54,033 nt of DNA from a virus. Under the pieces are notes generated by a model. The model searched no databases. It was not told the DNA's origin and saw only the letters and a list, made by a program, of their open reading frames with translations. The first letter of the stretch is position 1. Each line of letters begins with the position of its first letter. The position numbers were made by a program, and so were the translations under genes. Shown here piece by piece: positions 3,513-40,795 of this stretch. The stretch is taken from positions 1 to 54,033 of IMG/VR virus record IMGVR_UViG_3300031565_014860, one strand, 5' to 3'.

Positions 3513-5696
3513 TCACTTCATCCATTTATCTAAAGATTCACTTTTTTCTTCCCATCCTAATGCTGCGAATATAGGAGATGTTTTATTATCAATTGTTATT
3601 TCAATCATTTTTTCCCAATTAATAATTAAATCTTTTGGAGGAATATCTTTATATGCAATTCTTTTAGTATCTGGTTTATCTTTTATCTTTGCATAAATAT
3701 ATTTAATACTATCTCCGGGTTGTATATTCATATTTAAATTTTCATTTGACCATTTAGCAGCTTCAACATGAAATGTTTTTTTAATATATGTATCTATTGG
3801 TCTATTTATCATTGTTGGTATTGCAATATCATTTATAGAAATACCATATATTTCTTCTTTCTTTTTATTAATATATTCTTTACATTCTTTTTTTGTTTTA
3901 TTATCAAGAATCATTTTTAATAATTCTTCTTGAATTTGTTTTCCAAATTTATTAAAATTACTTTTTACTATCTCAAATCCAGATACATCAAAATAATTGA
4001 TTTCTTTTTTTCCATCATGAACTAACCAACCAGCATATCTCTTTTTAGCACCAGTCTTAATATCTCCTTTTTTAGAACTAAAGAATACATTTTTAAATAT
4101 TCCTTTATATTCATTGCTTATCCATTCATTTTTTTCACCTCCTTTATCTTGTACAAATTTATTATATCCTTCATTTGTAATCTTTAATAATTTGTCTTTA
4201 ACTATTAATATTTCATTTAAATCAGTTAATCCTGTCTCAACAAAACATGAATCTGTATCTCCATATATTACAGAATATCCTGCATCTTCAATTGATTTAA
4301 TAGTATGTTTAATTATTTCCTGTCCCATAGATGTTATACAACCAGCAACATTATAATCACAAACTCTATTATAATTAAAACCACAATATCCATATATACT
4401 ATTTGCTACTCTTTTAATTGCATATTGCATAACATAAAAGGTATCATATTCTTTACTTCCTTTTTTAAATTGTAATTGTTTTATTGTATATGTTTCTCTT
4501 AATTTAATTAAATACTTACATATTTTTGGATTAGTTCCTTCATCGGTTGAAAATGAAAATCCATTAATTAAATTTCCAGGTCTAATAGTATCAAAACTCA
4601 TATTAAACTGACAAATAATAGAAGGATATAGTCTTTTTAAATCAAATATTATTACTCCAGTATGTACTCCTGGCTCAGACTTCATTACAAATGCACCATC
4701 ATATGGTACTTTTTCTGTTTTAACTAATGTTGGTAATACATCATTTTTATATCTTAATAATAATATATCATCCATTGTCCCCGAATATGCTAATTTAGAC
4801 CATACACATCCTACATGTATTCTTAAATTATTATAAAATTCAACAATATGTTTTTTCTGGTCAATTTCTACAGCTAATGCAACATGTTCTCTACAACAAG
4901 AAATAACCTCATCAATATTTTTAATACTAAAATCTTTTGGCTCATGTTTTTGTTTATTTAATTCTAACATAGCTATTTTTTCTAATGAATATCCGCCTAA
5001 TTTATTAGGTTGCATTTTTCTATAATAATCACATAAATCAAAATTAATTACTCCTTTTATATTAAGTCTTTTTTTATTTCTTTCTCTTTTACCAGAAGAT
5101 ACTAATTTAAAAGGACTTAATCCACTCATATCTATATCATTATTATTACCAAAATTAATAATATAAGGCAAATCAAATCCATTTATATTCCATCCTGTTA
5201 TAAGTTCTGGTCTTCTATCTTTTATAAATTCTATAAATTTAAGAATAACTTCTTTTTTATCTTTAAATTTAAATATTTTTCCCTTTTCATCTTTACTTAT
5301 ACTATCTTCTATTCCCAATGCAAAAGTTACATCATGTTCCATATCAGAATCCTGACAAGTTATACATAATATAGGCTCAGGAGTAGTAATAGTATCTAAA
5401 CATTTATTTGTTTCAATATCAATACAACATACTCTTGGTATTTCAATTGGAAGAGGAATACTATGTCTATCTATTAAATATCTTTGAGCATAAGGATATA
5501 CATCTGCTTCATATGTTTTTGGATAATTTCCTCTTAATATATGAATATCTGCTGGTGTTTCTACCGTTATTTTATTTTTATTATTATCATAAAAATAAGG
5601 GGAAAAATCAGATATTCTTTTTACATATCTTTTTCTATCAGAATCTCTACCAATAATTACAATATCTTTTTTACCTTGTTGTTCAAATATAATCAT
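3513..5696 (-). CDS. polB: DNA polymerase family B
   Basis: Replicative DNA polymerase, 727 aa. Exonuclease motif I is CIDIETN (Asp93, Glu95) and motif II is TGWNINGFD (Asn171, Asp176). Polymerase motif A is FDLKRLYPSII (Asp353), motif B is KRVANSIYGYCG (430-440), and motif C is YGDTDS (479-484), so the polymerase site is intact. The usual exonuclease III YxxxD appears as CCREH near 268-272, which may weaken proofreading. The C-terminus ESLDKWMK resembles a PCNA-interacting peptide and is shared with the clamp loader A product at 9.9 kb. The gene overlaps the transglycosylase gene by 4 bases. Confidence 0.96.
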   Translation of the reverse strand: MIIFEQQGKKDIVIIGRDSDRKRYVKRISDFSPYFYDNNKNKITVETPADIHILRGNYPKTYEADVYPYAQRYLIDRHSIPLPIEIPRVCCIDIETNKCLDTITTPEPILCITCQDSDMEHDVTFALGIEDSISKDEKGKIFKFKDKKEVILKFIEFIKDRRPELITGWNINGFDLPYIINFGNNNDIDMSGLSPFKLVSSGKRERNKKRLNIKGVINFDLCDYYRKMQPNKLGGYSLEKIAMLELNKQKHEPKDFSIKNIDEVISCCREHVALAVEIDQKKHIVEFYNNLRIHVGCVWSKLAYSGTMDDILLLRYKNDVLPTLVKTEKVPYDGAFVMKSEPGVHTGVIIFDLKRLYPSIICQFNMSFDTIRPGNLINGFSFSTDEGTNPKICKYLIKLRETYTIKQLQFKKGSKEYDTFYVMQYAIKRVANSIYGYCGFNYNRVCDYNVAGCITSMGQEIIKHTIKSIEDAGYSVIYGDTDSCFVETGLTDLNEILIVKDKLLKITNEGYNKFVQDKGGEKNEWISNEYKGIFKNVFFSSKKGDIKTGAKKRYAGWLVHDGKKEINYFDVSGFEIVKSNFNKFGKQIQEELLKMILDNKTKKECKEYINKKKEEIYGISINDIAIPTMINRPIDTYIKKTFHVEAAKWSNENLNMNIQPGDSIKYIYAKIKDKPDTKRIAYKDIPPKDLIINWEKMIEITIDNKTSPIFAALGWEEKSESLDKWMK

Positions 5697-6748
5697 ATAA
5701 AAAACTCCTTTAATGATTTAGTCTTATGTTTATTAAAATGTCCATAATGTATATTTAATGTTTCCTCTAATCCATTTTTTCTTACTTCATCTATAAAAGA
5801 AAAATACTGTTTCTTATCTTTACAAAATGATTTATATGCTTCTATATCTTTAGATAATATTCTTAATATTTTTTGATATTTTATTATTTTATATAAATTA
5901 TGTAATCCTATTAATCTTTCGTTTTCACAAAAATCATTAATTGTAAATTTTTTGCATACTGGACAATCGCATGGCAATTCTTGTATTAATGTATCATTTC
6001 TATTTGAAAGTTTCAAAATATCTCTATTATACATATCAATCCAAAATCTTCTATTAGACATTCCATATATTGCAGAAGAAGAATCAAACGTTATTGGTAT
6101 ATCATACGCTTTTGATAAATAATTAATTATAGGCATTGTATTCTTTCCACTTAATCCAAAAAAATGAACTGGTTTTTTATATTCTTTAATTTGTTCCATA
6201 AATATAGTAAGAACTTGTGTTAAAAGCATTTTCTTTCCAGATAAAGGAACCAGTCCTCCTATTGCATATCCATCAAATAATTCAAAATTTCCCATTTCTT
6301 TATATTTATTAATTATAAAAGATTGTTCAATTAAACTATGTCCTTGTATAACTGCATATAGTTTTATATCTTTCTTTTCTTTTAAAGTAAGATATGCTTT
6401 TTCTACTGTTTTTATTTGTTTTTTTCTTTTTGTTTCTATAGAATCATTTTCTAATATAGGATAATCAAAAGTAAATCCGATATCAGCATTTTTCTCTTGC
6501 CATTGTAATACTTTTTCAGGACTTAATATTGAATTCAAGGTCATATTTTGAAATCCACCAGAATCTGCGAATAAAATAAAATCCTTGGGAATCTTAAATT
6601 TTTCTCTATAATTATAATCTGATATTCCATAATATGTTGATATTAATCCTGTATTATAAGTAAAAGGAGAGCTTTCTTCCCACCAATTATCTTGCATTTG
6701 TCCAGATGGTAATACTGGAATAAATTTACCTATTGTTTCTTTTGACAT
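5693..6748 (-). CDS. dpdA: TGT-like transglycosylase, probable DpdA (7-deazaguanine insertion into DNA)
   Basis: Base-exchange enzyme of the tRNA-guanine transglycosylase superfamily, 351 aa. Catalytic landmarks are FADSGGFQ (Asp62, general base), the GYAIGGLVP substrate-binding loop (about 160-168) and ITFDSSSA (candidate nucleophile Asp222). A zinc site is visible as CDCPVC (Cys260, 262, 265) with His283. There is no PUA domain and the protein is shorter than archaeal tRNA-modifying ArcTGT. Because the next upstream genes are queC, folE, queE and queD, it most likely swaps guanine in viral DNA for a 7-deazaguanine such as preQ0, as known for phage DpdA. A tRNA target is the alternative. Confidence 0.82.
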   Translation of the reverse strand: MSKETIGKFIPVLPSGQMQDNWWEESSPFTYNTGLISTYYGISDYNYREKFKIPKDFILFADSGGFQNMTLNSILSPEKVLQWQEKNADIGFTFDYPILENDSIETKRKKQIKTVEKAYLTLKEKKDIKLYAVIQGHSLIEQSFIINKYKEMGNFELFDGYAIGGLVPLSGKKMLLTQVLTIFMEQIKEYKKPVHFFGLSGKNTMPIINYLSKAYDIPITFDSSSAIYGMSNRRFWIDMYNRDILKLSNRNDTLIQELPCDCPVCKKFTINDFCENERLIGLHNLYKIIKYQKILRILSKDIEAYKSFCKDKKQYFSFIDEVRKNGLEETLNIHYGHFNKHKTKSLKEFFI

Positions 6749-6953
6749 TTCTTTTCCTCTAAATTAATTTTTCTATCTAAATAAAATCTTGCTTTTTTAA
6801 GTCTTCTATTTTTTTATTCTTATGATTACATCTGTTTATATATTTAATAACATTTCCTAAATGAAATCCTAATTTCCAATCTTCTATAACATTTATTGGT
6901 TCTATTTTTCCTTTATTATAATGAACAGGATGATTTATTTTATCTTTTTCCAT
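6730..6953 (-). CDS. DUF3310 protein, candidate -1 frameshifted gene
   Basis: Small phage-type DUF3310 protein. The zero frame (6953 to 6777, 58 aa) starts MEKDKINHPVHYNKGKIEP and contains the family signature HPxHY...GKIEPI, GFHLGNVIKYINR and IEDLKK, then ends early in KQDFI. A -1 shift at the run TTAAAAAAG (6792-6800, heptamer A_AAA_AAG) restores the expected family ending KKARFYLDRKINLEEKK and stops at 6730, inside the transglycosylase start. The extent given here is the shifted product. A programmed frameshift or a one-base homopolymer sequencing error would both explain it. The start abuts the queC stop. Function of the family is not firmly known. Confidence 0.7.
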
Positions 6954-7616
6954 TTAATCATCCATATATTTAATTGGGTCTTTCATTCCTGCTTTTTTAA
7001 ATGCTTCTAATCTTTCAGTACAGGAACCACATTTCCCACATGCTTTCTCTTTTCCTTTATAACATGTCCAAGTTAAAGAATAATCTACTCCTAATTTTTT
7101 ACCTATTATAACAATATCTCCTTTATCAATATCACAATAAGGAGCTAAAAAATATACCTTATTCCAATCGCATAAAGATATAGCAGTTTCCATTGCATCT
7201 ATAAATTCTTTTCTACAATCAGGATATATATCATGGTCTCCTGCATGCGCTCCATAAAATAAATATTTTGCACCAATTCCTATAGCATAAGATGTTGCTA
7301 AAGATATCATAACCATATTTCTATTTGGGACTACTGTTTGTTTCATATTTTCGTCTGCATAATTTCCTTCTGGAACTTCCCAATCATCTCTTGTAAGACA
7401 ACTTGGAGCTATTTCATTTAAAATATTTAAATCTAATATTTTATGAGGAACATTTAATTGTTTACATGTTTTTTTTGCATATTCTAATTCTTTATTATGT
7501 TTTTGATTATAATCGAAACTTAAAGCAAAAGTATCAAATCCAAGTGATTTAACATCATATAATAATGTTGTAGAATCCATTCCTCCACTTAATATTATTA
7601 CTGCTTTTTCTTTCAT
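6954..7616 (-). CDS. queC: 7-cyano-7-deazaguanine synthase QueC
   Basis: Converts 7-carboxy-7-deazaguanine (CDG) to preQ0 with ATP and ammonia. The ATP PP-loop is ILSGGMDSTTLL (residues 8-19). The C-terminal zinc site is CYKGKEKACGKCGSC, with four conserved cysteines. The length of 220 aa is normal, and no fused amidotransferase (Gat) domain is present, so further conversion to the amidine form is not predicted. It overlaps folE by 4 bases (ATGA) and lies in the order dpdA-DUF3310-queC-folE-queE-queD, one continuous translationally coupled pathway operon. Confidence 0.95.
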   Translation of the reverse strand: MKEKAVIILSGGMDSTTLLYDVKSLGFDTFALSFDYNQKHNKELEYAKKTCKQLNVPHKILDLNILNEIAPSCLTRDDWEVPEGNYADENMKQTVVPNRNMVMISLATSYAIGIGAKYLFYGAHAGDHDIYPDCRKEFIDAMETAISLCDWNKVYFLAPYCDIDKGDIVIIGKKLGVDYSLTWTCYKGKEKACGKCGSCTERLEAFKKAGMKDPIKYMDD

Positions 7617-8284
7617 TTTATCAACTCCAAAAACTCTTGCCTTGCACTTGCATTCTTTTTAAATTGACCCCCAAGTTTACTTGTAGTTGTATTGCTTGTT
7701 TGGTCCTGAACTCCCCTAGTTTTAACACAAAAATGAGTTGCATTCATTACAATAGCTATGTCTTCTGTATCTAATATATAACTTAAAGCATAATAAATTT
7801 GTTCGGTTAATCTTTCTTGTATTTGAGGTCTTCTAGAAAAATAATCTACTATTCTATTAAATTTACTTAATCCTATAATCTTTTTATTTGGAATATAAGC
7901 AATATGTGCTACTCCTTGAAATGTAACAAAATGATGTTCACATGTACTTGATACATTAATATTTTTAATTAAAATCATTTCATCATAATTCATTTTATTT
8001 TCTACTGTTGTTATTTTAGGAAAGTTTTTATCTTCTAATCCCCAAAACAATTCATTAACAAACATTTTTGCAATTCTTTTTGGAGTTTCTTTTAAACTAT
8101 CATCTTTTAAATCTAAATTTAAATCATTCATAATATCGGTAAAACTTTCTTCAATAAACTTTATTCTATCCTCAGTGGCGAAAAATTTTCCTTTTATTGT
8201 TGGAGTATTCTTACCTAATTTTCTTAAATAAGCATTTACGCTTTCTCCTAATTCTTTATCTGTTTTTGTTATATCTAAAACCAT
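7613..8284 (-). CDS. folE: GTP cyclohydrolase I
   Basis: Makes 7,8-dihydroneopterin triphosphate from GTP, the first step of 7-deazaguanine synthesis. The sequence shows STCEHHFVTFQGVAHIAYIP (catalytic and zinc Cys/His), SKFNRIVDYFSRRPQIQERLT and HFCVKTRGVQDQTS, all hallmarks of the type IA enzyme. The length of 223 aa is typical. A GAGGTG ribosome binding site lies just upstream of the ATG at 8284, directly after the queE stop. In this operon the product feeds QueD rather than folate. Confidence 0.95.
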   Translation of the reverse strand: MVLDITKTDKELGESVNAYLRKLGKNTPTIKGKFFATEDRIKFIEESFTDIMNDLNLDLKDDSLKETPKRIAKMFVNELFWGLEDKNFPKITTVENKMNYDEMILIKNINVSSTCEHHFVTFQGVAHIAYIPNKKIIGLSKFNRIVDYFSRRPQIQERLTEQIYYALSYILDTEDIAIVMNATHFCVKTRGVQDQTSNTTTSKLGGQFKKNASARQEFLELIK

Positions 8285-8956
8285 TTAAACACCTCTTTTA
8301 TTTCCCCATAACCATATTTGTAATCTTGGTGAAAATCCATATTTATATTTCTTACATTTTTCTACTAACCATAATGAAATTTCTTTCAATATAGAATCTT
8401 CTACTCCTGCTGGCATTAAATATACATATTTAATTAAATTTTCATTGTTTTTAATAATATTATGCCAAAATATAAAATCTTTTTTTGTACCAATTACAAA
8501 TTTCCAATATATTTTTTGATTTCCTAATACTAATTCCATTTCTCTAAAATTAAGTATAGGTATAGTATGTTTCTTAAGAGATATAATTATTGTGTCTATA
8601 TGTTTTATTGAGCCTATTCTAGATATTAATGTTCCATTAGTTTCTATATGAAATATATATTTAAATCTAGGTTCATCTCTACATAATACTTTATAGATAG
8701 TTTCAATTTCTCTTATTTGTAATAATGGTTCTCCACCAGTCCATATAATTAATGTGTTTCCTTCTTCTATTATTCTATTTACAACTTGTTGAATAGTTAA
8801 TTTTTTTCCTTTAAATGCATAAGTTGAATCACAATCAAATCCAGCAGTTTCTTTAGTACAATTTAAATTACATCCAGCTAATCTTACAAAAGTACAAGGA
8901 AGACCCATAGCAGGTCCTTCTCCTTGTATTGAACTAAATATTTCATTCACATTCAT
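8285..8956 (-). CDS. queE: 7-carboxy-7-deazaguanine synthase QueE (radical SAM)
   Basis: Radical-SAM ring-contraction enzyme that turns 6-carboxytetrahydropterin into CDG. The start MNVNEIFSSIQGEGPAMGLP matches the family start (xxExFxSIQGEG). The cluster motif reads CNLNCTKETAGFDCDS, that is CX3CX8C rather than CX3CX2C. Related spacing variants are known in some QueE families, and the usual CD(T/S) follows the third cysteine. IIWTGGEPLLQ is the SAM-binding GGEP block. It overlaps queD by 14 bases and abuts folE. Confidence 0.9.
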   Translation of the reverse strand: MNVNEIFSSIQGEGPAMGLPCTFVRLAGCNLNCTKETAGFDCDSTYAFKGKKLTIQQVVNRIIEEGNTLIIWTGGEPLLQIREIETIYKVLCRDEPRFKYIFHIETNGTLISRIGSIKHIDTIIISLKKHTIPILNFREMELVLGNQKIYWKFVIGTKKDFIFWHNIIKNNENLIKYVYLMPAGVEDSILKEISLWLVEKCKKYKYGFSPRLQIWLWGNKRGV

Positions 8957-13071: not shown

Positions 13072-13275
13072 CTATTTTTTTATTACATATTTTATTTTTC
13101 TAAATCTTAATGCTTTTTTATGAATTATCTTATATCCCATATTAACTAAGTGTTTATATAGGGTAACATAAGCTATTTTTGTTTTTCCTGTTATTTCAGA
13201 AAGAGGAATCCCATCGGGATGGGACTCTAACATTTTTTGTAATTCCTCTTTTTTTTGTTCTGTTAATACTACCAT
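13072..13275 (-). CDS. Small winged-helix DNA-binding protein
   Basis: 67 aa starting MVVLTEQKKEELQKMLE. The stretch GIPLSEITGKTKIAYVTLYKHLVNMGY reads as a helix-turn-helix, followed by a basic wing (KKALRFRKIKYVIKK). It overlaps the stop region of the upstream SSB-like gene, with a GGAAT ribosome binding site inside that gene. It is likely a regulator or DNA-binding accessory of the replication operon; the target is unknown. Confidence 0.6.
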   Translation of the reverse strand: MVVLTEQKKEELQKMLESHPDGIPLSEITGKTKIAYVTLYKHLVNMGYKIIHKKALRFRKIKYVIKK

Positions 13276-26010: not shown

Positions 26011-26520
26011 ATATGTTTTGTTATTGCGTAATGACAACTAAATTTTAAACCGCATACCCGCTCCGTCTTTTAAAATATTAAAAGACATAATCGCTATACC
26101 GAGCTGTATTTTAATGTTTTAGGTTGTAATGTATATATTTGTATTTCTATCTATGTGTCATCGTTCTTATTCTATTCTTTTGTATAATGTATATATATAT
26201 ATATTAAAATATATATATAAAATATTAAAAAACACCGGAGATTAGCGATTTTGAAATTTAAAAAAATGGCGCCGCAGTATATCGATTTATTTAAAGTCAA
26301 ATCTTTCAATAGCGCCGAATCGCACACCGGAGGCTCATTTACTGTTTTTTGGATATTTCGGAAATACCAACCTTTTCTCATTGTAATCTTCATATAAAAA
26401 CTGCGGCGATATTGAGAATACCATCGCAATTCTTATTTTCTATAAACTCCCTTTTAGATAAAGATATTTGATTTTGACACATAATATATCAAATGATTAA
26501 AGTGAATTATTAAAGAATTA
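26011..26520. other. Gene-free region rich in inverted repeats
   Basis: About 510 bases without a convincing gene. It holds a 22-base palindrome (26065-26086, GTCTTTTAA/TTAAAAGAC arms), an inverted pair CGCCGCAGT (26270-26278) and ACTGCGGCG (26400-26408), a direct repeat CACCGGAG (26233, 26325), and a long TATATA run near 26188. The 85-codon frame at 26172-26429 has improbable composition and no ribosome binding site, so it is not called. It may contain a structured RNA or operator sites for the flanking regulators. Confidence 0.5.
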
Positions 26521-26524
26521 GTGA

Positions 26525-26538
26525 GGGACCGAAGTCCC
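26525..26538 (-). terminator. Stable UUCG-tetraloop hairpin after winged-helix gene
   Basis: On the minus strand: GGGAC-UUCG-GUCCC, a 5-bp GC stem closed by the very stable cUUCGg loop, about 20 bases after the stop at 26560. No U-run follows directly, so it may protect the mRNA end rather than terminate. Confidence 0.55.
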
Positions 26539-26559
26539 CCTTTGTACAATTGTTCTTAC

Positions 26560-26865
26560 TTATGCAGACTTTGCAAGATTCTTAAAGACAGATGTTCGTT
26601 TTCCTTCTTTATCCACAAGATATCCTCTGTCGAGCTTGTCGTCCCTGAAAAGGTTATTCAATGCTGTTTGAACGCTTGCAATTTTTACTTCTGTTTTTAA
26701 TACCTCAGAAACTGGTTTTACTAGTTCTGCTGCTGAGTATCCACCTTTTGTGGTCATTGCTGCTAAGACTGTTCCTCTTAGACTTTTTCCCTTTAGCCCA
26801 AACCCTCGTGATGGTGTTTTATCTAACTTCTCAAATTCCTCTTCATTAATTGGCATATTAGCCAC
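26560..26865 (-). CDS. Winged-helix transcription regulator
   Basis: 101 aa starting MANMPINEEEFEKLDKTPSR. The following LRGTVLAAMTTKGGYSAAEL ... IASVQTALNNLFRDDKLDRG and GYLVDKEGKRTSVFKNLAK fit a winged helix with a beta wing. AGGAGGTGG precedes the ATG and a TATA box lies 40 bases upstream, so it is probably transcribed from its own promoter. Its codon use is less AT-biased than neighbours. A UUCG hairpin follows. A viral early regulator is likely. Confidence 0.7.
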   Translation of the reverse strand: MANMPINEEEFEKLDKTPSRGFGLKGKSLRGTVLAAMTTKGGYSAAELVKPVSEVLKTEVKIASVQTALNNLFRDDKLDRGYLVDKEGKRTSVFKNLAKSA

Positions 26866-27084: not shown

Positions 27085-27131
27085 TTCTATTCACCTTATT
27101 TTATTTTATTCCATAATATAATATGGAAAAC

Positions 27132-27173
27132 GCTCATTCGAGGACTCACACCTCGAAGTCTGTTAGTATGAGC
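27132..27173 (-). ncRNA. tRNA-minihelix-like hairpin element, copy 1
   Basis: On the minus strand: GCTCATA, an 11-base linker, CGAGG-TGTGAGT-CCTCG, then AATGAGC. The 5-bp arm with a 7-base T-loop-like loop stacks directly on a 6-bp acceptor-like stem, as in the acceptor/T arm of tRNA. It begins at the stop codon of the gene at 27173-27397. Copy 2 is at 27613-27653 with compensatory changes. Confidence 0.55.
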
Positions 27174-27397
27174 TAGTTCTGATATGTTGGACACACTATT
27201 ACTACTTCTTTTGTTTCATCGTCATAGTATATTCCTTTGATTGATTCTTCTGGATTCTCTTCAATAATTTCACATATTTCATAATCTTCATGACAGTCGT
27301 TGTTTATATTGTTCTCAAAGTCATATACATTTCTAGTACATATAGATGTCTCTGGGTCATAGTTCTTTAATATATCTATTAGTTCTTTTATTTTCAC
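27173..27397 (-). CDS. Small acidic protein, paralogue of 27656-27829
   Basis: 74 aa: MKIKELIDILKNYDPETSIC then a very acidic region and KEVVIVCPTYQN. The motif M-x-(I/V)-x-(E/D)LI-x2-L-x2-YDP is shared with the gene at 27656-27829 and resembles small phage proteins of the LxxYDP...V type. GGAGGCGATTAAGTG provides the ribosome binding site inside the upstream gene end. Confidence 0.6.
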   Translation of the reverse strand: MKIKELIDILKNYDPETSICTRNVYDFENNINNDCHEDYEICEIIEENPEESIKGIYYDDETKEVVIVCPTYQN

Positions 27398-27571
27398 TTA
27401 ATCGCCTCCATCCATACAATCAAAGATTTCAACTACATCTCTAATTGTTAATTTTCTTATATCATATTCATCGTAATCTGCTTCTACATCTTTTATCAAT
27501 GCATCTCTGAGTTTTAATGGTATATTGCATTTCTTCATTGCTTTATCTACTATAATTTCAACTCTTTTCAT
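27398..27571 (-). CDS. Hypothetical small protein (57 aa)
   Basis: Frame MKRVEIIVDKAMKKCNIPLK ... VEIFDCMDGGD. Its last codons (GGAGGCGATTAA) also form the ribosome binding site of the next gene. Helical. Not recognised. Confidence 0.52.
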   Translation of the reverse strand: MKRVEIIVDKAMKKCNIPLKLRDALIKDVEADYDEYDIRKLTIRDVVEIFDCMDGGD

Positions 27572-27612
27572 TTTTTCACATCCTATTTTATTTTATTCTT
27601 TAATATAATAAT

Positions 27613-27653
27613 GCGCATTCGGAGATTTGCACTCCGATATTCCTATTATGCGC
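27613..27653 (-). ncRNA. tRNA-minihelix-like hairpin element, copy 2
   Basis: On the minus strand: GCGCAT, a 10-base linker, TCGGAG-TGCAAAT-CTCCGA, then ATGCGC. Compared with copy 1, both stems differ in sequence but stay paired, and the loop TGCAAAT is one base from a tRNA T loop. It begins two bases after the stop of the paralogous gene at 27656. Confidence 0.55.
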
Positions 27654-27925: not shown

Positions 27926-28147
27926 TTATACTTTTTCTCTTTTTGTATCTATAAAAAAGAGTTCTAAGCATTCAACAAGAAACTCGCTCATCAAATCTCC
28001 GCTAATGTTATGTTTTTTTAATATTTTATCTTCTTCAATTACAACTAGTTCTTTTAATCTTTGTTCTAGTTGAATTTGAAATGGTCTTTGTTTAATTAAA
28101 ACTCTAGTTCTATTAAACATTATTTTTCTCATTTGAACTTCATTCAT
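27926..28147 (-). CDS. Hypothetical helical protein (73 aa)
   Basis: MNEVQMRKIMFNRTRVLIKQ then a long amphipathic helix region and CLELFFIDTKREKV. It is the first gene of the minus arm, with a CGAGGCGATATT ribosome binding site and a long 5' leader (TATA at 28279-28287). Likely an early protein; family not recognised. Confidence 0.6.
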   Translation of the reverse strand: MNEVQMRKIMFNRTRVLIKQRPFQIQLEQRLKELVVIEEDKILKKHNISGDLMSEFLVECLELFFIDTKREKV

Positions 28148-28278
28148 AATATCGCCTCGTTTTATTTTATTCCTTAATATAATATATACTTCTATGTGTT
28201 CCTATGTACATTATGTTATGTATATCTTCGGTCATATATATAGATTTTGCGTTCATACGATTATTTAAATTTTAGTAT

Positions 28279-29026: not shown

Positions 29027-29168
29027 TAGATTATATATAATCTATTATCTTTTATTTTGTTTTACGTACTAATATAATCTTTATTCTCTATTTTATTTTA
29101 CGTACTAATATAATCTTTATTCTCTATTTTATTTTACTCACTAATATAATATATACATATCCGTATAT
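29027..29168. repeat. Tandem 36-bp repeats, about three copies
   Basis: The unit ACGTACTAATATAATCTTTA plus TTCTCTATTTTATTTT repeats with a period of 36 bases (about 29064, 29100 and a diverged third copy). On the minus strand the unit resembles the leader found before minus-arm genes (ATATTA..AAAATAAAA). Could be iterons or duplicated promoters/leaders. Confidence 0.6.
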
Positions 29169-29789: not shown

Positions 29790-29852
29790 TAGAATATATA
29801 GATTTTAATATATATAATATAATATATATATTTTAATATATATTATGAATTA

Positions 29853-29885
29853 GGGGGGTCGTTTCGATTCGACCACCATGTCCCC
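29853..29885 (+). other. GC-rich hairpin in leader region
   Basis: Inner stem GGTCG/CGACC (29857-29861 with 29870-29874) with an 8-base loop. Outer GGGG/CCCC (29853-29856 with 29882-29885) is separated by a 7-base linker on the 3' side. It stands out in an AT-rich region, upstream of the promoter at 29949. It may be a terminator of the preceding gene or a regulatory RNA fold. Confidence 0.5.
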
Positions 29886-29948
29886 ATTGATTCTCTATGA
29901 GTCACCTTTTCGAATAATACGTCACTCTCGCTTAATAACAACACATAA

Positions 29949-30005: not shown

Positions 30006-30188
30006 ATGGACGTTGGCAAGGAGTATCTGGTGGTCTACAAGGACGACCGAGGAGTAACGAGGACCAAAGTATTAAAGTTCGTTAAGGCGGATAGTTTTCT
30101 ATATCATTTTTATAATCCCTGGAAAAATCTTGAAGAAGGGATTAAGCGGGATAATGTATTTCGTTATGAAGAGGCGGTTTCCAAATGA
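30006..30188 (+). CDS. Hypothetical small protein (60 aa)
   Basis: MDVGKEYLVVYKDDRGVTRT ... FRYEEAVSK. The first 80 bases have clearly higher GC and unusual codons (GTC, GAC, CTG, ACC) for this genome, suggesting recent acquisition. A strong GTAGGAGGAAATCGC site precedes the ATG. The stop overlaps the next ATG. Could be a small Tudor- or SH3-like beta protein; uncertain. Confidence 0.6.
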   Translation: MDVGKEYLVVYKDDRGVTRTKVLKFVKADSFLYHFYNPWKNLEEGIKRDNVFRYEEAVSK

Positions 30189-38691: not shown

Positions 38692-40767
38692 ATGTATAAT
38701 ATTAGAAAAGAAATTGATGGTTCTGCAGAAGATGTAGAAGAAATTAAAGGAAATAGGTTATTTACAGCTGATTATCAAATACAATGGCGTTCTGATGCAA
38801 CGTATATATATTCAAGTGCTACTGGACAATTAGATACTGTTGCAAGTGGCGTATATACAGTAACAGCACCAACTACTACTATTACAGCATCAACTTTAGG
38901 AGCAGTATATACACCAGATTTTAGAGTCGGATTCGATACTGGGTCATATATGAAAGTAGCAGTAGCAGATACAACAGGAGTAACAGCAGTAACATTCGCA
39001 GGTAGTGGAGCAACATATACATTAACCGTTCCAACATTTACAGTTGTAGCAGCAAGCGGAATAAAACTTGACGGTGCAATAACTTTTGATGGAGATGGAA
39101 CTTTAACTGATGCAGCAAATGTACTTACCATTACACAGGATACTATTACATTGGTCGGTGCAACAGCAATATCTCTTGATGGAGATACATCAGTAAATGC
39201 AGCACATACATTTACAACTGGAACTGGAAATGTAACTATTAAAGGAGATATGTCAATAGATGCAGATAAAGACTTTGATATGTCTGGGGGAACTGGTACA
39301 TTTGCAACTGGAACTGGAAATGTTTCACTAAATGGCGATGTAACAATAGCCGCAGATAAAAATTTAGCAATGTCTGGAACTGCAACATTCACAACAGGAA
39401 CTGGAGACGTAACAATAAATGGACAATTAATTGCAACAAAATTACCAACATCAGATGCAACACCAACAATAGGAATAGGAAATTGTGGAACTAGACTTGT
39501 TGATACATCAGTTGCAGATAGTTTGTTTTTTCAATCAGTTGTAACTGCTTGTGCTAAAGACACTGCGGGAAATTCAACCGCAGCAGGATATTTTAGTTCA
39601 AATAATGTAGCAGCAACTGCAAATGCAAGATTACAATCAGTATTAGCACACACATATCTAAGTGGAGATTGTAATGACGCATACGGAGTTCAAGGACATT
39701 TAACTGTATTACAGGATGTAGCAGCAGGTGGAGCAGCATACAATTTAATCGGAGTATCAGGTAAAGCAACTTTAACATCTGGAAAAACTGTATCCGCAGG
39801 AAGAGTATGCGGTGGTCTATTCATAGTAGATGGAGCAGGTTCAGTTACAAATGAATGTTATGGAGTAATGATTCATACTGAAAGCACAGTAACAGCGTGT
39901 GATGCATTACTTAAATTATCAGCAGGAGCAGCAGTAACCACAGGTATTTCAATGACTGGAGAATATACAAATTCAATCCTATTGCCTGATGATGCACCAA
40001 TGTTAATTGGTACAACAAGAACAGATGCTTCAACATACATTGGAATGGAGTTTGATGAAACTACTACAGGTGTAGGTTTGTTTACAATGGGTTCTACCTC
40101 AGCACCAATGGTATTAAATACGAATCCCGGAGCAAATGTAATAGGACATACAATTAATATATTACATTCAGCTGGAGCAGGTGATAATGAGAACCTATAT
40201 GGCTCATATGTAAAAGCAGCTATTACTGGAGAGGGAGACACTGATACAGTATTAGTTGGTAGTGCGCCAAGAGCTTATATCGGAACAAATGGTGGAACTA
40301 CGGTAGCTTCTGCTGCTTATGGTTGTCAACCTTGGGCTAAACACGAGGGAACTGGTGCAGTAACAGCAATGTCTGGTGTATCCGCATTAGTTGATGTAAA
40401 CACAGATGCATTTACAGCAAGTACAGTTAATGCAGGACATTTCCATATTGAAGGTGCAGCAACAGTAACAGGTCAATTTGATGGTGTAATGATTGAAGCA
40501 TATCCAGACGTTACATGCATGGATTCAATGTTAGCTCTTGCAGTTGATAGTGGAGCAGTAGTAGGTTCAGGTGTCAGAATTACAGGAACTCCTAAAAATG
40601 GAATATTATTCCAAAACGGAGTAAGTATTTCTGGTGGAGCAGGTACAGACGATACAACTATTAAATCAGAACAAGGAGAAACAGCACCAGCTGGTTCTAT
40701 TTACATAGGCTCAAGTGGTGTACATGTGATGGTATCAACAACTTGGACAGCATTAACAATCAATTAA
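38692..40767 (+). CDS. Large fibre/spike-like virion protein
   Basis: 691 aa, Gly/Thr/Ala-rich beta protein. Residues about 170-245 contain 30-residue repeats (TGTGNVTIKGDMSIDADK, TGTGNVSLNGDVTIAADK, TGTGDVTINGQL). The C-terminus APAGSIYIGSSGVHVMVST matches tail-fibre C-terminal caps. Located right after the capsid gene, so it may be a head fibre or an adhesin. GAGGTGAG ribosome binding site. Confidence 0.65.
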   Translation: MYNIRKEIDGSAEDVEEIKGNRLFTADYQIQWRSDATYIYSSATGQLDTVASGVYTVTAPTTTITASTLGAVYTPDFRVGFDTGSYMKVAVADTTGVTAVTFAGSGATYTLTVPTFTVVAASGIKLDGAITFDGDGTLTDAANVLTITQDTITLVGATAISLDGDTSVNAAHTFTTGTGNVTIKGDMSIDADKDFDMSGGTGTFATGTGNVSLNGDVTIAADKNLAMSGTATFTTGTGDVTINGQLIATKLPTSDATPTIGIGNCGTRLVDTSVADSLFFQSVVTACAKDTAGNSTAAGYFSSNNVAATANARLQSVLAHTYLSGDCNDAYGVQGHLTVLQDVAAGGAAYNLIGVSGKATLTSGKTVSAGRVCGGLFIVDGAGSVTNECYGVMIHTESTVTACDALLKLSAGAAVTTGISMTGEYTNSILLPDDAPMLIGTTRTDASTYIGMEFDETTTGVGLFTMGSTSAPMVLNTNPGANVIGHTINILHSAGAGDNENLYGSYVKAAITGEGDTDTVLVGSAPRAYIGTNGGTTVASAAYGCQPWAKHEGTGAVTAMSGVSALVDVNTDAFTASTVNAGHFHIEGAATVTGQFDGVMIEAYPDVTCMDSMLALAVDSGAVVGSGVRITGTPKNGILFQNGVSISGGAGTDDTTIKSEQGETAPAGSIYIGSSGVHVMVSTTWTALTIN

Positions 40768-40770
40768 TTG

Positions 40771-40795
40771 GGGCAAGTGCCCTTTTTTATTTTTA
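40771..40795 (+). terminator. Hairpin plus T-tract terminator
   Basis: GGGC-AAGT-GCCC (40771-40782) followed by TTTTTTATTTTTA, directly after the fibre-like gene stop. Second intrinsic-terminator-like element in the structural module. Confidence 0.65.

Follow-up and report, generated by a model that had tools for sequence, protein, structure and literature searches.

A locally duplicated RNA hairpin behind the stop codons of two small genes in a probably archaeal virus, a candidate mRNA 3'-end element

Described 3'-end signals and tRNA mimics

Archaeal transcription terminates mainly at U-tracts, with aCPSF1 (FttA), and a hairpin is not strictly needed (PMC8716108). In the archaeon M. maripaludis termination in intergenic regions inside operons is widespread (PMC10450193). 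The two hairpins described here, hpA and hpB, resemble such internal operon terminators in location, as they lie between operon genes ahead of a possible internal start, but here conservation lies in the hairpin, next to a weak U-tract (PMC8716108, PMC10450193). With the hairpin-plus-U-tract type of terminator they share the GC-rich hairpin and its position immediately after a stop codon, whereas the nested second stem, the 7-nt T-loop/GNRA-like loop and the weak U-tracts set them apart. Mimicry of tRNA is known from viral and long noncoding RNAs, RNase P recruitment included, and has been reviewed; the tRNA elbow requires C56 together with its D-loop partners G18 and G19 (PMC4810234). hpA and hpB are like the tRNA acceptor/T-arm minihelix and the RNase P-processed mimics of the mascRNA type in their 12-bp coaxial stack, their 7-nt UNNRANN loop and its closing G-C pair. 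They differ from these RNAs by the lack of a D-loop partner and of CCA, by G55, by overlap with a stop codon and by a division into 6+6 rather than 7+5 pairs.

The window, the whole 54,033-nucleotide stretch of viral DNA analysed here, encodes both hairpins on its minus strand. Proteins of this virus include PolB, an RFC-like clamp loader (phrog_168, E 2e-55) and a SNF2 helicase, in addition to QueC, GTP cyclohydrolase I, a QueE-like radical SAM protein and a TGT-domain (DpdA-like) protein. This gene content points to a tailed virus with a 7-deazaguanine pathway, whose host is probably an archaeon. The last four genes form a cluster on the minus strand (5693-8956), which suggests that the virus DNA carries a modification of the preQ0/archaeosine type.

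Fold and gene setting of the two hairpins

hpA occupies positions 27132-27173 and reads, from 27173 to 27132, GCTCAT-ACTAACAGACT-TCGAGG-TGTGAGT-CCTCGA-ATGAGC. Its outer stem (GCTCAT/ATGAGC) is joined by an 11-nt linker to an inner stem (TCGAGG/CCTCGA) that carries the loop TGTGAGT. hpB (27613-27653) reads GCGCAT-AATAGGAATA-TCGGAG-TGCAAAT-CTCCGA-ATGCGC from 27653 to 27613, with outer stem GCGCAT/ATGCGC, a 10-nt linker, inner stem TCGGAG/CTCCGA and loop TGCAAAT. The common fold thus comprises a 6-bp outer stem, a 6-bp inner stem and a 7-nt loop; the linker is confined to the 5' side, and on the 3' strand the stems join without a gap. This two-stem fold had been predicted at both positions and is present there when the minus strand is read, except that the inner arm, given as 5-6 bp in the original prediction, has 6 bp in each copy. 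The predicted folding energies are -14.7 kcal/mol for hpA (z -2.0) and -16.2 kcal/mol for hpB (z -3.2), and no stronger hairpin than these two was found within about 70 nt of any listed stop codon. hpA and hpB are a genuine RNA hairpin element of unusual shape that has been duplicated locally.

The surroundings consist of a leftward run of small genes. hpA starts with the G, the last base, of the TAG stop codon of a 74-aa gene (27397-27173, minus strand; MKIKELIDILKNYDPE...), and hpB starts 2 nt past the TAA stop codon of a 57-aa gene (27829-27656, minus strand; MNVRDLIETLQQYDPN...). The idea that both copies begin at a stop codon needs a small correction, since hpA includes just the final base of the codon and hpB misses it by 2 nt. 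The two small genes had also been called paralogous, a relation that stands in a weak form (26% identity over 53 aa, pairwise E 7e-4); their PHROG matches are marginal only. Each hairpin would close a two-gene unit, the first gene of which encodes 57 aa in the case of hpA (27398-27571, minus strand) and 73 aa in the case of hpB (27926-28147, minus strand), if these pairs are indeed operons.

A 25-bp AT-rich box, ATTATATTAnnGAATAAAATAAAAT, has five matches with at most three mismatches, all on the minus strand between 27098 and 29150, where 0.04 are expected. It adjoins the ribosome-binding sequence and ATG of three genes: the copy after hpA (27098-27122) precedes gene 27084-26944, the copy after hpB (27585-27609) precedes the gene at 27571, and a third copy (28159-28183), with no hairpin upstream, precedes the gene at 28147. 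In IMG/VR the box pattern has a single, unrelated match inside coding sequence. Along the strand, a box and a gene are followed by the small paralogue, the hairpin and then the next box and gene, and since the box follows hpA after 9 nt and hpB after 3 nt, each hairpin falls between units. The box might be a leader or promoter, or alternatively a translation leader that is not a promoter.

Placement behind stop codons is a wider tendency of this genome. For a set of 45 stop codons, 0.43 start positions of a GC-rich hairpin are expected within 40 nt, and 9 are present, at four loci. The genes were our own pick from the open reading frames and not a curated set, and the elements themselves count towards the background rate. 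Because hpA and hpB sit where 3'-end signals are placed, at sites that the GC-rich hairpins of this virus prefer, an element of the mRNA 3' end is the best explanation. We give a probability of roughly 0.5 to the reading that they are duplicated RNA hairpins at the 3' end, or at the edge, of two short transcription units that run leftward, each made up of box, gene, small paralogue and hairpin. Transcription would start from the box, and the hairpin would fold right behind the stop codon as it is transcribed. Once folded it may define or shield the mRNA 3' end, by aiding termination at the weakly U-rich sequence downstream, by blocking 3' exonucleases or by both, and it would insulate the unit from the box and gene that follow. 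If confirmed, this would give tailed viruses, of whose gene-expression signals next to nothing is known, a 3'-end element that is structured and covaries, and archaeal termination or 3'-end stability could be studied on a small, testable RNA.

The same arrangement could belong to one long polycistronic mRNA in which the hairpins are spacers that serve as endonuclease sites or separate the translation of neighbouring genes. The box directly precedes a GGTGA/GGATG-like ribosome-binding sequence and the ATG, as a translation leader would, and if TTATATTA were a TATA box the transcript would start almost on the ATG and leave scant room for a ribosome-binding site. Such spacers do not account for the box-like tandem copies at 29035-29150, which have no leftward gene directly behind them, nor for the other GC-rich hairpins that sit behind stop codons at apparent unit ends, and we regard this alternative as rather doubtful. 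An element acting at the DNA level, either an operator or a recombination site of a gene-cassette-like kind (compare integron attC), as dyad DNA or as a folded single strand, would fit the repetition of gene plus hairpin as modules and the box just downstream of each hairpin. It is nevertheless highly improbable: the spacing to the box is unequal, boxes without a hairpin exist, the one-sided linker means that there is no dyad symmetry, and a dyad bound by protein would keep its sequence rather than its complementarity. No GTTRRRY/RYYYAAC attC cores were seen by eye.

Paired changes and searches for further copies

hpA and hpB are homologous (28 of 46 alignment columns identical), and they therefore represent one origin and one duplication rather than two independent events. 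The copies differ at 6 of the 24 stem sites and at 10 of the 18 unpaired positions. In three of the 12 pairs both bases have changed, and no pair is lost, which bears out the earlier observation that the stems differ yet stay paired; six random stem substitutions would leave all 12 pairs intact with P = 9e-4. This evidence of covariation comes from two copies in one virus genome, and with two sequences only, the shuffle control on the alignment is not significant (64/500). When the alignment register is slid, pairing always drops to 21-46%. Nested perfect 6+5-bp structures with at least six GC pairs arise on average 0.05 times per simulated 54-kb window, and a count of two was reached in only 2 of 200 simulations. 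Together with the enrichment of GC-rich hairpins after stop codons, the double changes support the prediction of an RNA-structured 3' element after paralogous genes.

An alternative source of the paired changes, with no selection on RNA function, is template switching. It repairs quasi-palindromes while DNA is replicated, and perfect stems can be generated and kept in this way, complete with multibase compensatory changes (PMC8794818). In one of the stems two of the three paired changes stand side by side, and only two copies from one genome are at hand, so that template switching without selection is a live rival. It is made less likely by the changes having fallen in two separate stems while the geometry of outer and inner arm stayed constant, and by itself it predicts neither the placement behind stop codons nor the enrichment there. 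Overall we consider it an unlikely account of the paired changes.

No further copies of hpA or hpB were found in IMG/VR, in the GTDB genomes or in Rfam. Covariance model R1, the kind of search proposed at the outset, recovered only the two known copies and nothing on four other virus records. The original prediction had held that a lack of further copies would speak against the element. The lack extends to every collection searched and is weak evidence, because the three nearest related viruses have no match to the 74-aa gene; they are therefore unable to test covariation, and the lack of a hairpin in them says little. These three, with 43-50% terminase identity, are the only related viruses obtained through the terminase and the AAA protein, and no relatives were found in the GTDB genomes.

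DNA patterns searched in IMG/VR gave no match in the strict form and 18 in the relaxed form, every one of which lies in an unrelated context and lacks the outer stem. The pattern search of GTDB genomes gave 28 matches, none with an acceptable structure, and a weak pattern match at 63780 of G002 lies inside a QueE-like gene. Several of the GTDB matches are one repeat of the MAG 'bacterium isolate Zod_Metabat.886'. This repeat contains TCGAAGTGAAACTCGACGAATGCGC (with one change in one copy), is present on at least eight contigs, several times near a contig end (L041, L042, L045, L046, L048, L051, L052 and L062), and is unrelated to the hairpins. In the relative L006 a hairpin begins next to a TAG stop codon in the corresponding small-gene region and is followed by TTCTTTCTTTC, which favours a 3'-end element. 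Only this inner stop-codon hairpin is taken as meaningful, since the larger nested shape at 4640-4683 of L006 has its outer 5' strand inside coding sequence and an ordinary energy (z -1.05).

Loop type, downstream sequence and other hairpins

The loops UGUGAGU and UGCAAAU, both closed by a G-C pair, fit the T-loop rule U-N-N-R-A and have the joint form UGYRARU. The statement that the loop is one base from a tRNA T loop (TTCAAAT) is correct for hpB, whereas hpA is two bases off. Both loops can equally be read as U-[GNRA]-R with a bulged pyrimidine, that is, as the tetraloops GUGA and GCAA closed by a U-R pair with a bulged U, and the L006 hairpin follows the same scheme with GAAA. They differ from plain GNRA tetraloop hairpins by the one extra pyrimidine that must bulge, and the nearest-neighbour model makes this form 1.3-1.6 kcal/mol less stable than an open 7-nt loop.

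A tRNA mimic, in which the outer stem stands for the acceptor and the inner arm for the T arm, would allow host RNase P, RNase Z or the CCA-adding enzyme to make a discrete mRNA 3' end. The 12-bp stack resembles that of an acceptor and T arm, and the G-C-closed 7-nt loop has U54, R57, A58 and Y60 in both copies. However, G55 replaces U55 in both copies and U56 replaces C56 in hpA, and the linker contains GG in hpB only, so that there is no conserved GG to dock on the loop. Neither copy carries CCA, the 3' flanks being GTTTT and ATTAT, and cleavage of hpA by RNase P at its predicted site, the 5' end, would separate TA from the G of the stop codon. No tRNA match was found at either hairpin with ARAGORN or in Rfam, even at E<=5, and no Rfam family matches there at the gathering score. 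As tRNA-like RNAs the hairpins thus fail on two of the features tested, a match to tRNA models and the presence of a common D-loop partner and CCA. With the overlap of the stop codon this speaks against the suggested tRNA mimic or RNase P/Z recognition site, which we consider very unlikely; that hpA and hpB work like a tRNA is possible but unsupported. The chance is slimmer still that a T-loop minihelix at the mRNA 3' ends recruits host RNase Z, RNase P or the CCA-adding enzyme and so makes or protects these ends. To our knowledge such a minihelix would be the first in an archaeal virus, and a true tRNA mimic would bring archaeal DNA viruses into the range of viral tRNA mimicry.

The sequence 3' of the stems bears on how a 3'-end element would act. 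It is GUUUUCC in hpA, with one U4 tract, and AUUAUUA in hpB, with no U-tract, and a plain terminator is therefore disfavoured. The GC-rich hairpin near a stop codon is present in both copies and the U run directly after the stem is not; a terminator scanner run on the minus strand called neither. Moreover, the 12-bp stack and conserved loop are more elaborate than a terminator requires.

Other hairpins of the window have simpler or different designs. A hairpin on the plus strand (40768-40790; GGGGC-AAGT-GCCCT followed by TTTTTATTTTT), directly after the stop codon of 38692-40767, has the shape of a bacterial-style terminator and fits the hairpin-plus-U-tract type. On the minus strand the plain hairpin GGGGGAC-TTCG-GTCCCTC (26523-26540) lies 19 nt after the stop codon of 26560-26865 and represents a different end-of-unit design. 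Both of these hairpins are among the four loci counted above. A nested hairpin at 13200-13251 is apparently in coding sequence and was taken as chance. A GC-rich nested hairpin of similar layout to hpA and hpB is found at 29845-29895, in an intergenic region before the plus-strand gene at 30006; it has a 4-bp outer stem, a one-sided 7-nt linker, a 5-bp inner stem and an 8-nt loop, and its energy is not unusual (z -0.7 to -1.3). The box-like copies at 29035-29150 are three 36-bp tandem repeats carrying a version of the AT-rich box, which could be regulator sites, iterons or T-rich terminators for a plus-strand gene. Finally, about 300 bp without a convincing gene (26160-26480) contain CACCGGAG and GCGCCG motifs, twice, and a 12-bp hairpin on the minus strand (26391-26436, -16.7 kcal/mol), and may hold a small RNA or a site.
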